A stretch of DNA of 64,000 nucleotides from assembly GCA_014377485.1 (NCBI GenBank), contig JACMPM010000052.1:1-64000 (forward strand). Direction: 5' to 3'. Below are positions 46,009 to 50,622 of this stretch, in pieces; position 1 is the first letter of the stretch, and every line of letters begins with the position of its first letter. The stretch comes from Bacteriovorax sp. (GTDB lineage: Bacteria > Bdellovibrionota > Bacteriovoracia > Bacteriovoracales > Bacteriovoracaceae). Made by a program: the position numbers and the translations under genes. The notes beneath the pieces are model-generated. The model did not search any database. It saw only the letters and a list, made by a program, of their open reading frames with translations, and was not told the DNA's origin.

Positions 46009-47679
46009 TTAGTCAGATTTTTTGGGAAGCTCAATGATAAATGTAGTATGAATAGCATTACTGTCAATTGTAAATCGGCCGTTGTGAGATTCAATAATTC
46101 CCTTAGAAATACTTAGTCCTAATCCAGTGCCTTTTCCAACAGCCTTTGTAGTAAAAAAAGGCTGCATCATTTTTTGAATAATGGCTTCAGGAATTTTTTT
46201 ACCGCTATCGGAAATAGCAATAGTAACTCTGTCCCCCATGTCAGTGATTTTTATCTCAATCCATTTTCCATTTGTGTCTTCCAGAGCATCCAGAGAATTA
46301 TTTAAAAGATTCATAATGACCTGTACAATTTGAACTTCACGGCATTCGATAATTAAATCTTGAAAAGGTATAATCCGTAACGCAATTCCATTATTTTTTA
46401 ATCGTTCGCCACAAAGATCAAGAATACTATCAATAATATGTTTAATCGAAATGGCGACAGCAGGATCATTAAATGAATCTCTTGCAAATGTGCGGAGCCC
46501 TTTAATAATTTTAGCTATACGATCAACCGTCTTGATAATTTTATCAAGAGAGTCATTTAACTTTTTGTCAGATTCAATTTCGCTAGTAGGCCTCTTTATG
46601 GTCATAGCTAATGCAGAAATAATGGTGAGTGGATTATTAATCTCGTGAGCTATCCCACTGGCCATTTCTCCCAATGAAGATAACTTGGCAGACTGAATCG
46701 CTAGTTTTCTTTGTTCTTCAACTAACTCCAAAGAATGGAGAAAATTAAGAAGAAAAAATGCAAATCCCGAAAATAAAACCAAGATCAAAATGATATAAAT
46801 GAAGGTTCTTAATTTCCAAGCATATAAAAAGTCTTTAACTGCAAGTCCAACCAAAACGGTAAAGTGATAGTTGCCAATTTTACGACCAGTCACAATTCTC
46901 TCAACGTTATCAATACGAGAAGAAGAAAGATAAGAAGTAGAATGGTTACTTCCGTTTACCAAATCATCAATTTGAGGCGCGAGTTTAATAACTTTTCCAA
47001 AATGTTCATCAGACCAAGGTATGCGGGCGTAAACAAAATGATCAAAACCATAAAGAGTAATGACTCCCTTGGGTCCTATATTGATAGCAGAAAACATTTC
47101 ACGGTAAAAATCGAGAGGAATTGTCGCCAGAATAAGTCCCCTAAATTTTCCAACCTTAGAAAGTATGGGTCTAGCAAGAACCATCACCCATTTTCCTGTA
47201 GTTTTGCTAATAACCGGCCTAGATATCTTTAATTCATCCTTATTACTATTTTTCAGGTATTGAAAATATTCTCTATCGCGAAGATTAGATTTAGCAAGAA
47301 AACCTAAATCATCTCCGATAAATTCTCCATCTTGGTCTACAGCTTTAATGCTTAAAACTTCAGGGAGTCTGTTTTTGTGGTTAAGTAGTAATTTATTATA
47401 TGTATAACTCTTTTTGGGTGTGAGCACTTGATCGATAGAAAATTGATCTTGTAATTCCATGAGGATTAAGTCTATTTTTTTAAATGAAGTTGAGATTTGT
47501 CCTTCTAAAACTTCAGTTAGATTACTTGATTGAACCTTGGCACTATGCATTTCACTTTTATAAGACATGTAAGACTCAAATAGAAATACCGCTACAACAA
47601 AGATCCCAACGATCATTGAAACTATGAAAATTCTTGAGTTTTTTGAATGTTTAATGAGGTTTATGTATTTATTAATCAT
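46009..47679 (-). CDS. Sensor histidine kinase with extracytoplasmic Cache-like domain
   Basis: A 556-residue membrane kinase: TM1 at about 17-36, a periplasmic sensor domain of about 250 residues that looks like dCache/CHASE (LRDREYFQYLKNSN, ISRPVISKTTGKWVMVLARPI), TM2 at about 290-313, then HisKA (LGEMASGIAHEINNPLTII, phospho-His) and an HATPase domain (MNLLNNSLDALED, SDSGKKIP, GTGLGLSISKGIIE). Catalytic residues look intact. The sensed ligand is unknown. Downstream lies a broken response-regulator gene; upstream, divergent, the clan CD pair. Confidence 0.9.
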   Translation of the reverse strand: MINKYINLIKHSKNSRIFIVSMIVGIFVVAVFLFESYMSYKSEMHSAKVQSSNLTEVLEGQISTSFKKIDLILMELQDQFSIDQVLTPKKSYTYNKLLLNHKNRLPEVLSIKAVDQDGEFIGDDLGFLAKSNLRDREYFQYLKNSNKDELKISRPVISKTTGKWVMVLARPILSKVGKFRGLILATIPLDFYREMFSAINIGPKGVITLYGFDHFVYARIPWSDEHFGKVIKLAPQIDDLVNGSNHSTSYLSSSRIDNVERIVTGRKIGNYHFTVLVGLAVKDFLYAWKLRTFIYIILILVLFSGFAFFLLNFLHSLELVEEQRKLAIQSAKLSSLGEMASGIAHEINNPLTIISALAMTIKRPTSEIESDKKLNDSLDKIIKTVDRIAKIIKGLRTFARDSFNDPAVAISIKHIIDSILDLCGERLKNNGIALRIIPFQDLIIECREVQIVQVIMNLLNNSLDALEDTNGKWIEIKITDMGDRVTIAISDSGKKIPEAIIQKMMQPFFTTKAVGKGTGLGLSISKGIIESHNGRFTIDSNAIHTTFIIELPKKSD

Positions 47680-47807: not shown

Positions 47808-49145
47808 ATGATCAATCGATTACTTGTAGTGACTACTGCTGCATTTGTTATGGCATCTGCTTTCGGTGCTACCTCAATTAAGAGTACAGAAAGAAAACTT
47901 TATACTGCTTCAAATTCAACTGAGGCAATCTTAGAATTCAATGGAATAGTTCAATATGAATCTGCTCGTACTCCTGTCGAAAAGACAATGAGAAATCAAA
48001 TTGAAGCCCAACTTGATCATATCATTGGCCCAATGTCTGAAGCTCAATACACTGCTGTTCCAAAAGGTGATCATATTGTCACGGACATTAAAATAGTAAA
48101 AAAGGACAAAACTACTTTAACAATAAGTTATAAATATAAAGGTACAATCGTACTTCAAAATGGACCCAAAGATACTTATACTATTTTATTACCAGTTAAT
48201 CCAAAAACAATTTATGCTGCAGCTATGGTAGGAGACGAAAATCCATGTACTGATGAACATTACCAGACTGAAGGTGACTTCTGGTATTTCTGGAGTCCAA
48301 GCCGTCCAGGCTGTAAGCTAAAAGAAGGAAAAGACTATAATATTGTAAACGCAAAAATCCAAAGAATTGTGAATTCTAAATTATCTTATCCGGAGTACCA
48401 AAATCTTCCGGACGAAAAAGGAAATATTACTATCCACGTTTTATTCGGAATGGATGATCCAACTCTAAGTAGAAATCCATTAAGTAGTACTGATATTAAT
48501 GCTGTTAACTATCGTACTTTCAGAAATTATCTATTAAAAAATGGATATAAGGCGACGACATGGACCGATAATCAAGTTAATGCCATTGCTAAAACTCTCG
48601 ATGGAGCCGCTCCGTTTGTAGAAACAATCCAAAAAGAAAAAATCGTTTATCGTTTCTTTTATGCTCCTACTGGAATTGATGAAGAGGCCCTTGGATTTCA
48701 TTGGTTCTATAAAGACGCTCTGGAAAATGCTTCTATCGTAATGTACGAAGGTCATTCAGGTCTTGGTGGACATTTAGATCTTGATTCAATTGAACAAAAT
48801 CTTGGTGAAACAATTAAATTCTCTAAAAGATACCAAATTTATTTTTTTGATAGTTGTACATCATACAAATATTACAACACTGCTTACTTCGAAAGAAAGA
48901 TTAATGCAAAAGATCTAAAAGGAACGAAGAAGTTAGATATCTTTACCAATGGATTATCTACTGCCTTCGATGCTATGCCAGCTGCAAGTGCTGCCCTAGA
49001 TATGGCCTTGGAAAAAGCTTTGAATTTAGCTCAGACTGGAAATGGATTTGTAAGCTATCAAACTCTTGCGAAACAAATAGATTCTGATAATTTGTTTGGC
49101 GTAAATGGTGATGAAGACAATGTTACTCCTTCAAAGATTAAATAA
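47808..49145 (+). CDS. Exported clan CD (caspase/gingipain-like) putative cysteine peptidase
   Basis: A 445-residue protein with signal MINRLLVVTTAAFVMASAFG. The second half has the clan CD layout: a hydrophobic strand leading to His316 in IVMYEGHSGLGGH, then a strand leading to Cys350 in YFFDSCTSYKYY. The first half (about 20-280) is beta-rich with a Cys pair and looks like a prodomain or binding part. It is not a canonical member of any peptidase family I recognise. GAGAGGA lies before the ATG. The clostripain-like gene starts 41 bases before its end. Activity is inferred from the dyad only. Confidence 0.7.
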   Translation: MINRLLVVTTAAFVMASAFGATSIKSTERKLYTASNSTEAILEFNGIVQYESARTPVEKTMRNQIEAQLDHIIGPMSEAQYTAVPKGDHIVTDIKIVKKDKTTLTISYKYKGTIVLQNGPKDTYTILLPVNPKTIYAAAMVGDENPCTDEHYQTEGDFWYFWSPSRPGCKLKEGKDYNIVNAKIQRIVNSKLSYPEYQNLPDEKGNITIHVLFGMDDPTLSRNPLSSTDINAVNYRTFRNYLLKNGYKATTWTDNQVNAIAKTLDGAAPFVETIQKEKIVYRFFYAPTGIDEEALGFHWFYKDALENASIVMYEGHSGLGGHLDLDSIEQNLGETIKFSKRYQIYFFDSCTSYKYYNTAYFERKINAKDLKGTKKLDIFTNGLSTAFDAMPAASAALDMALEKALNLAQTGNGFVSYQTLAKQIDSDNLFGVNGDEDNVTPSKIK

Positions 49146-50622
49146 TCTAGTCCTTTTTCTTGTCATACTGGGTTCGGTCAGCGTAAATGCTGCCGAAACC
49201 AAATGGGAAGTGGCGATCGTCTTTCGTGGTGAAGGCGAAGATCAACAGTTTCAAAAAGATGTTGATGATAATATTTTAGAACTTGCCCGCCTAAACCCAA
49301 GTGCCACTTTAAAAATTGGTCTTTACAGAGAAATTGAAGGTAAGAGTTATTCTTACTTCCCAAATGGGCCAAGTAAAAAAGATATATCTCTTGGAGATTT
49401 ACTTTACCGCCAGGATTTAAATCAATTAAAGGTTCCTGGAACCTTTAAAACAAATGCCGGTGTTGAGTTAAAATCTTTCTTGAAATTTTTTTATAAAGAA
49501 TCAAATTCCAAAAGAGCTTTAATTATTTATTCTCATGGTAGAGGTGCTGATGGATTGAAGGGTTTATCTACAAAAGACCTTAAAGAAGATTTGCAATCTG
49601 CGCCTCATCTGGATCTTCTATGGTTTGATGCCTGTTTTATGTCCAACTTGGAATTTCTCTATGAACTTAGAAGTTTAAGTGACTATACCATTGCTTCAGA
49701 AGAAGCTGAGTTTGCTTCTGGATTACCTTTTCAAACGCTTTCACTCCTGCCTGCTTTATCGAGCGGAAAAGAAGCATCACTTGCTTTGGCAAAAAATTTT
49801 ATTGAGTCTTATTCTTATTTGAAAAATGGCAAGCAAAGAAATTATGTGAGTGTGAGTTCTGCTACTATATCCATAATTGAAAACAAAAAGCTAAAATCTC
49901 TTGCTGCTTCAATGAAGACTGTTTCAAATCTCTTTAAAAAATTATCTGCTGATCAAAAAATTAAACTTAATAAATTATTAATTAATAAAGCTTCTATGGA
50001 CGACAAATCGATGATCGATCTGGGGTTATTCCTAATTGAGATGCGTCGTCTTAATAATAGTGTAGAGATTGATAACAAACTCACCTCTCTTATACGACTT
50101 TTGAACATCGAAGCTGTCAAAGAATTAAAAACCAATCCTCGTATACACCTTCATTCCCCTGATAATTCAATGAAAACCCAAATGGTTTTTGGATTTAATA
50201 ATTGGATGACTGGAAGTAAGAAAGATTTCTCTGAAGGTGAAATTTACAGTACTATTTTAAAAAACGATGGATTCATTGCAGGCCCTAAGAATGAACAATG
50301 GCCTATGAAAAACTTAAGTGAGAACTCCGAGCTGGTTATCACACCCTTTGCACCTGGAATAAACGTTTTTAATTACTATTTTATGAATAATCAGAATGGA
50401 AAATTATTAACAGAAGCTCAAAGCGTTTCTCGTACTCACGATATCGTTGAATCTGTGGCCGATACTATTGCAACCCCACTTGTTTACACCGCCTACACTC
50501 AGCAAATTGGTTCAAAGGCCGAACGCTACACTGGTCTTAATATCACTATACCTGGGGCTGTTCCTTCAATCGATTATTTTGAATTAGAATTTAATCAACT
50601 CGCAGAGTGGTTAAGTTTATAG
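49105..50622 (+). CDS. Exported clostripain-like (C11) cysteine peptidase
   Basis: A 505-residue protein beginning with a signal peptide (LNNLVLFLVILGSVSVNAAE). The C11 catalytic pair is visible: His144 in LIIYSHGRGADG and Cys177 in LLWFDACFMSNLE. C11 enzymes cut after Arg or Lys and are often self-activated and calcium-dependent. The ATG at 49105 overlaps the preceding clan CD gene by 41 bases; ATG 49111 and 49120 are also possible. The overlap means the two should be expressed together. hrpB follows 13 bases later. Confidence 0.82.
   Translation: MVMKTMLLLQRLNNLVLFLVILGSVSVNAAETKWEVAIVFRGEGEDQQFQKDVDDNILELARLNPSATLKIGLYREIEGKSYSYFPNGPSKKDISLGDLLYRQDLNQLKVPGTFKTNAGVELKSFLKFFYKESNSKRALIIYSHGRGADGLKGLSTKDLKEDLQSAPHLDLLWFDACFMSNLEFLYELRSLSDYTIASEEAEFASGLPFQTLSLLPALSSGKEASLALAKNFIESYSYLKNGKQRNYVSVSSATISIIENKKLKSLAASMKTVSNLFKKLSADQKIKLNKLLINKASMDDKSMIDLGLFLIEMRRLNNSVEIDNKLTSLIRLLNIEAVKELKTNPRIHLHSPDNSMKTQMVFGFNNWMTGSKKDFSEGEIYSTILKNDGFIAGPKNEQWPMKNLSENSELVITPFAPGINVFNYYFMNNQNGKLLTEAQSVSRTHDIVESVADTIATPLVYTAYTQQIGSKAERYTGLNITIPGAVPSIDYFELEFNQLAEWLSL

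Follow-up and report, generated by a model that had tools for sequence, protein, structure and literature searches.

Two overlapping genes in the genome of a Bacteriovorax sp. raise the question of what enzymes they encode and whether their products work together. The genes lie in a window of 64,000 nucleotides (contig JACMPM010000052.1 of assembly GCA_014377485.1), and the initial annotation took them for a linked pair of secreted clan CD cysteine peptidases. The explanation that we favour, and regard as quite probable, is that the first gene, P1, and the second, P2, encode two structurally different exported cysteine peptidases of the caspase fold, which come from one coupled gene pair and act as one unit. 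P1 is an open reading frame with an ATG start at positions 47808–49145 of the forward strand and encodes 445 amino acids. P2, also with an ATG start, covers 49105–50622 on the same strand and encodes 505 amino acids, or 503 if translation begins at ATG 49111. Both frames are present exactly where the initial annotation had placed them. Rough dN/dS values are 0.08–0.17 for P1 and 0.12–0.25 for P2 where dS can be estimated, synonymous sites being near saturation. Both are under purifying selection. P1 and P2 are genuine genes, and neither is a chance reading frame. Each protein begins with an apparent Sec signal peptide as read by eye (residues ~1–20 in P1), which agrees with the secretion proposed for both products.

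Translation of the two genes would be coupled. An overlap of 41 nt had been described, and this figure is correct if the first ATG of P2 (49105) is used. The true overlap is more probably 35 nt (49111–49145, forward strand), because all five closest pairs retain the in-frame ATG 49111, but only three of them (window, L033 and L035) have the ATG at −41. Among the 12 pairs compared, the five from the genus (window, L032, L033, L034 and L035) overlap by 35 nt when counted from the conserved ATG; the overlap is 23 nt in the distant pairs L038, L039 and L083, 4 nt in L042 and 1 nt in L043. In L036 and L049 the genes are separated by gaps of 8 and 36 nt, respectively.

What kind of protein is P1? 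Profile searches against Pfam, NCBIfam and PADLOC gave zero matches, and searches of the PDB sequences, run with the single P1 sequence and with a profile, returned implausible matches only (a zinc-finger protein and MCM4). Relatives of P1 are found in 37 of 129 genomes of the order and, when the family alignment was used for searching a phylum sample, in 97 of 291 Bdellovibrionota genomes. They occur also in Elusimicrobiota and in other Bdellovibrionota (named contigs). Within the genus the distribution is patchy (7 of 14 genomes). The initial annotation had pointed to His316 and Cys350 as a pair in the caspase/gingipain layout; these residues are at the named positions and are invariant in all 79 aligned members, down to about 27% identity, so that no relative lacking the pair was found. 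The other invariant residues are Gly315, Gly318, Leu319, Gly320, Gln343, Tyr355, Lys364 and Asp435. A Gly ahead of the catalytic His is a feature of clan CD (PMC12445089), and P1 has it as Gly315 in 79/79 members.

The AlphaFold model of P1, made with 46 sequences (pLDDT 86.1, pTM 0.82), points to the same clan. An N-terminal domain (residues ~33–200) is followed by the putative catalytic domain (residues ~200–440), in which strands 310–314 and 343–347 end just before His316 and Cys350, as fits clan CD. Foldseek alone gave no match at E < 0.001 with the P1 model, nor did the viral structure library contain relatives at this threshold. When the Foldseek candidates were aligned with VIA-align, the ten best rows were all clan CD structures. 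More specifically, the top six rows are separase entries (Z 9.3–10.5, 3.1–3.5 Å, 162–173 residues, 9–13% identity), followed by RgpB (Z 7.9, 3.7 Å, 182 residues) and three caspases (Z 7.3–7.7, including caspase-8 at 7.7); unrelated Rossmann-like folds reach Z of 7.0 at most, below the clan CD rows. The match with separase is moderate, with Z of about 10 over 165 of the 445 residues. The predicted fold is thus nearest to clan CD structures and not to an unrelated fold. Among the proteins met here, P1 is the exported bacterial protein with a predicted fold closest to the separase protease domain, and this likeness bears on the origin of separase-type proteases.

At the level of sequence profiles, P1 reaches the threshold of no known family. 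The separase profile PF03568 matched neither P1 itself nor any of 46 members searched to E 0.1 or of 20 searched to E 10. The C25 profile reaches E 0.1 in four of 46 members, the best value being E 0.061 at 13 bits against a curated cut-off of 23; in L041 this weak match spans residues 322–379 and includes its His336 and Cys371. HMMER found no match of PF00656 (C14) in P1 or its relatives. In profile–profile alignment with hhalign, the catalytic domain of P1 scores 31.9 with bacterial C14 (E 0.0019 for a single pair), with the His and Cys motifs in register, as compared to 20.7 with C11 and 19.7 with C25. Reversed or column-shuffled controls give 12–18.5 for C25, 13–17 for C14 and 10–18 for C11, and the C14 score alone is clear of its controls. 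For scale, the known clan CD pairs score 25.1 (C25–C14), 22.4 (C25–C11) and 34.8 (C14–C11). Judged by these scores, P1 stands from the clan CD families at the distance at which those families stand from one another, because the P1–C14 value lies between those of C25–C14 and C14–C11. Descent of P1 from a duplicated and diverged C11 gene such as P2 was also considered and rejected, as hhalign does not support it. No CHAT domains were found in the 59 genomes searched.

The clan CD motif has been worded as His-Gly-spacer-Ala-Cys (PMC9499314), and P1 breaks it. His316 is followed by Ser in 78 of 79 members and by Ala in one, and the residue before Cys350 is Gly in 46, Ser in 31 and Ala in two. Since His-Ser and Asp-Ser-Cys are found in some C14 proteins of the phylum as well, the departure does not speak against clan CD membership but for a family of its own. 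One of these is a C14 caspase-type open frame of 799 aa in a Bdellovibrionota genome (L201 in G176), which carries His-Ser, not His-Gly, together with Asp-Ser-Cys.

P1 shares something with each of three known families and differs from all of them. Separases (MEROPS C50) provide the best structural matches, but P1 is an exported bacterial protein of 445 aa that lacks the long helical region of separase and has His-Ser in place of His-Gly. With gingipains (MEROPS C25) it shares the RgpB fold match and the weak profile match over the dyad; unlike them, it is without the gingipain domain architecture and remains far below the curated C25 cut-off. True C25 proteins also occur in Bdellovibrionota and P1 is not among them. 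In the phylum sample, very long open frames (2300–3500 aa) that carry C25 domains of the gingipain type are frequent. Caspases, metacaspases and orthocaspases (MEROPS C14) share the fold match and the profile–profile register with P1, which differs from them in being exported and in having a large N-terminal domain with its own conserved signature. Clan CD comprises eight MEROPS families and a proposed ninth, YabG (PMC12445089). Our results indicate that P1 most likely belongs to a clan CD peptidase family that has not been described, of which it would be a founding-type member with a His316–Cys350 dyad. This agrees with the earlier view that P1 lies outside the known peptidase families: the dyad is invariant, the top matches of the model are separase, gingipain and caspases, and P1 passes none of the family profiles. 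In the literature searched on clan CD, separase, Bdellovibrio or clostripain, no such family or gene pair is named. P1 is a candidate further clan CD family, present in about one third of the sampled Bdellovibrionota genomes and unnamed in every library searched.

If P1 is a peptidase, its specificity may be suggested by Asp229, which is found in 76 of 79 members and in the model sits at the start of the helix that follows the first core strand. In RgpB and the separases an acid at the corresponding point holds the substrate P1 arginine (PMC4626109). By topology, the position of Asp229 would be that of RgpB Asp163 and of the separase Glu (PMC4626109). Because that acid binds arginine in RgpB and separase, a preference of P1 for cutting after basic residues is a reasonable guess, with Asp229 as the candidate S1 acid. 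The position two before Cys350 is variable (Asn in 40, Gln in 26, Asp in nine and Glu in four of the 79 members).

The N-terminal domain contains one of the most conserved stretches of the family, CTDxHYxxEGDFWYFWxPxxxxGC (residues 147–169), which equals the catalytic motifs in strictness. No known motif among those searched matches it. Its terminal cysteines, Cys147 and Cys169, are each kept in 78 of 79 members; a disulphide between them would be in keeping with export of the protein. The signature may be a second functional site. As the most conserved stretch outside the dyad, explained by no protease family, it also speaks for a different interpretation: P1 could be a clan-CD-fold enzyme of another kind (transpeptidase or ligase) or a binding protein, with the dyad used for other chemistry. 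Some legumains are transpeptidases or ligases, and the Ser in place of Gly after His316 points in the same direction. However, His and Cys are invariant, a conserved acid is found at the expected S1 place, and His-Ser is also seen in L201, which is of the caspase type and comes from the same phylum. We therefore consider a non-proteolytic P1 quite improbable and continue with P1 as a putative peptidase. In some genomes the family is represented differently: G120 (L029) has about 5–8 P1-family places, and in G059 and G060 P1-type domains are found inside open frames of ~940–1450 aa.

Regarding P2, its description as a clostripain-like C11 protein with His144 and Cys177 is confirmed by several lines of evidence. 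It matches Pfam PF03415 (C11) with E 7.2e-24 and 85.4 bits (cut-off 25.8) and the PDB sequence 6n9j with E 2e-14. Its AlphaFold model (pLDDT 82.3) aligns with C11 structures at Z 26.5–28.3 over 299–316 residues (28.3 for 6n9j, 26.5 for clostripain 9cip). His144-Gly145, Asp175 and Cys177 (505-aa numbering) are invariant in 12 of 12 members; the motif is Asp-Ala-Cys177 in ten and Asp-Ser-Cys in L036 and L049. The Asp two before Cys matches the S1 acid Asp177 of PmC11. Thus P2 has in common with the clostripain family (MEROPS C11: PmC11, clostripain, BT_0727) the Pfam domain, the full fold and the His-Gly and Asp-Ala-Cys motifs.

P2 differs from PmC11 and clostripain in one respect: the P2 subfamily is without about 14 residues at their activation cut, and it was found only beside P1. 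In PmC11 the loop holds Lys147 and cleavage there frees the active site; the clostripain cleavage site Arg190 aligns with this Lys147 (PMC4850288). The P2 profile lacks 14 residues of the zymogen structure 6mzo directly after His-Gly, and the P2 subfamily is short there in all its members. P2 proteins of L038, L039, L083 and L144 are longer, with the extra residues further on, before the Cys strand. The measured unpaired C11 proteins of the phylum do have the loop: the His–Cys spacing is 33 in P2 as compared to 39–74 in these proteins, a range that covers proteins with a readable motif and leaves aside eleven that a simple pattern cannot read. P2 remains a C11 member despite the missing loop, because the activation loop is a feature of the studied members and not of the family definition. 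P2 is a new variant within a known family, a C11 subfamily that has lost its self-cleavage activation loop and was found only next to P1.

The two genes are linked well beyond this window. An unbiased search of the phylum found the P2 subfamily in 11 genomes of six families, and in each of the 11 the gene sits directly downstream of a P1 and shares its strand; adding the genus members G010 and G011, the arrangement is found in 13 of 13 distinct genomes. The subfamily was set by a score of more than 300 bits. Its members score 313–736 bits, and other C11 places ~76 or less, with the exception of a 142-bit fragment on a G165 contig that may be the rest of the truncated gene of that genome. The adjacency persists while the genes that flank the pair vary. 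Paired proteins cluster on the P1 tree (4 label changes versus 11.4 when shuffled), all in one part of 31 rows. A mirror-tree comparison of P1 and P2 gives r 0.79 over 12 pairs; this value is uncorrected for shared ancestry and is not counted as support. L041 has a P1 without adjacent P2, yet the same genome has a second P1 with P2 behind it (L144), which strengthens the pairing. The link that had been claimed between the genes is therefore upheld, since the pair recurs in different genera and families. The conserved adjacency shows linkage; it does not fix the kind of interaction. The pair is conserved and probably functional.

The dependence between the two genes is one-sided. The P2 subfamily was never found without P1 in the genomes searched, and most P1-bearing genomes have P1 without P2. 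Within the genus, L037:1–3400 (G013) has a P1 that is 77% identical, followed after about 30 bases by hrpB, which encodes a DEAH-box helicase, and no P2. Judged by gene order, this is a clean loss of P2 without decay of P1, because hrpB follows P1 directly there, whereas in the window it follows P2, 13 bases downstream. The unit is thus not obligatory for P1, which survives without P2. P1 is placed functionally upstream of P2 mainly because it is often alone while P2 was never found without it. From this gene content we infer that P1 acts upstream of P2 or that both act on shared substrates. P1 would be able to act alone and P2 would depend on it: P1 may mature or license P2, or P2 may complete what P1 starts.

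How P2 is brought into action can be explained in more than one way. P1 might cut P2 after a basic residue and switch it on, replacing the lost self-cleavage loop. The one-sided dependence suits such a cascade, as do the absence from P2 of the loop that PmC11 and clostripain cut for self-activation (PMC4850288) and the conserved acid of P1 at the place where Arg-specific clan members have theirs. On the other hand, losing an inhibitory loop may equally yield a P2 that is active as made and requires no activator, and P2 showed no conserved site for such a cut. We regard the cascade as a tentative possibility. Its combination with the identity of P1, that is, a new clan CD family with the separase protease domain as nearest fold and, in addition, an exported two-enzyme cascade with P1 as activator of a C11 enzyme that no longer activates itself, is unlikely when taken as a whole. 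Processing of one product by the other, as suggested before, may occur, but not via the usual C11 route, because P2 is without that loop. The dedicated pairing of P1 with a loop-less C11 enzyme offers a direct test case for trans-activated bacterial protease pairs outside the cell.

It may also be that P1 and P2 degrade extracellular or prey protein independently of each other, as exoproteases without direct contact whose genes share an operon for the sake of co-regulation. Secreted proteases are commonly encoded side by side, both proteins have signal peptides, and both families are mostly alone elsewhere. Moreover, at L019:1450–3939 (forward strand) a distant P1 relative is followed 36 bases on by a gene for a trypsin-like serine protease. 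We give this explanation real weight, short of an even chance, but the strict restriction of the C11 subfamily to the slot behind P1 and the missing loop exceed what shared regulation would call for. Action of P1 and P2 as one unit, most likely on extracytoplasmic proteins, is in our opinion the better account.

A divergent sensor kinase had been noted beside the pair. It is present at 46009–47679 on the reverse strand, 128 bases from P1, and is a histidine kinase of the ordinary type (dCache_1, HisKA and HATPase_c). Its membership of the unit is not supported, and it was rejected as a partner, since it adjoins the pair only in the window and in the nearest relative, L032. Genes upstream in other pairs encode radical SAM (L033, L035) and PLD-like proteins (L038, L083). 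Scans for promoters and terminators gave results at chance level. The initial annotation had also considered a predatory or defensive use. That the pair and the kinase form a regulated predation or defence module could be proposed from the divergent arrangement in the window and in L032. We find this very improbable, as the remaining pairs have other upstream genes, the pair is absent from half of the genus and P1 occurs also in Elusimicrobiota. A defensive use has no support, with zero PADLOC matches, and the presence of P1 in 7 of 14 genus genomes and in Elusimicrobiota does not indicate a predatory one.

The slot behind P1 can be taken by a gene other than P2. At L040:6277–7395 (forward strand), the 3′ end of a P1 relative that has no P2 overlaps an unrelated gene, whose lipoprotein-like product has about 370 aa and no Pfam match.
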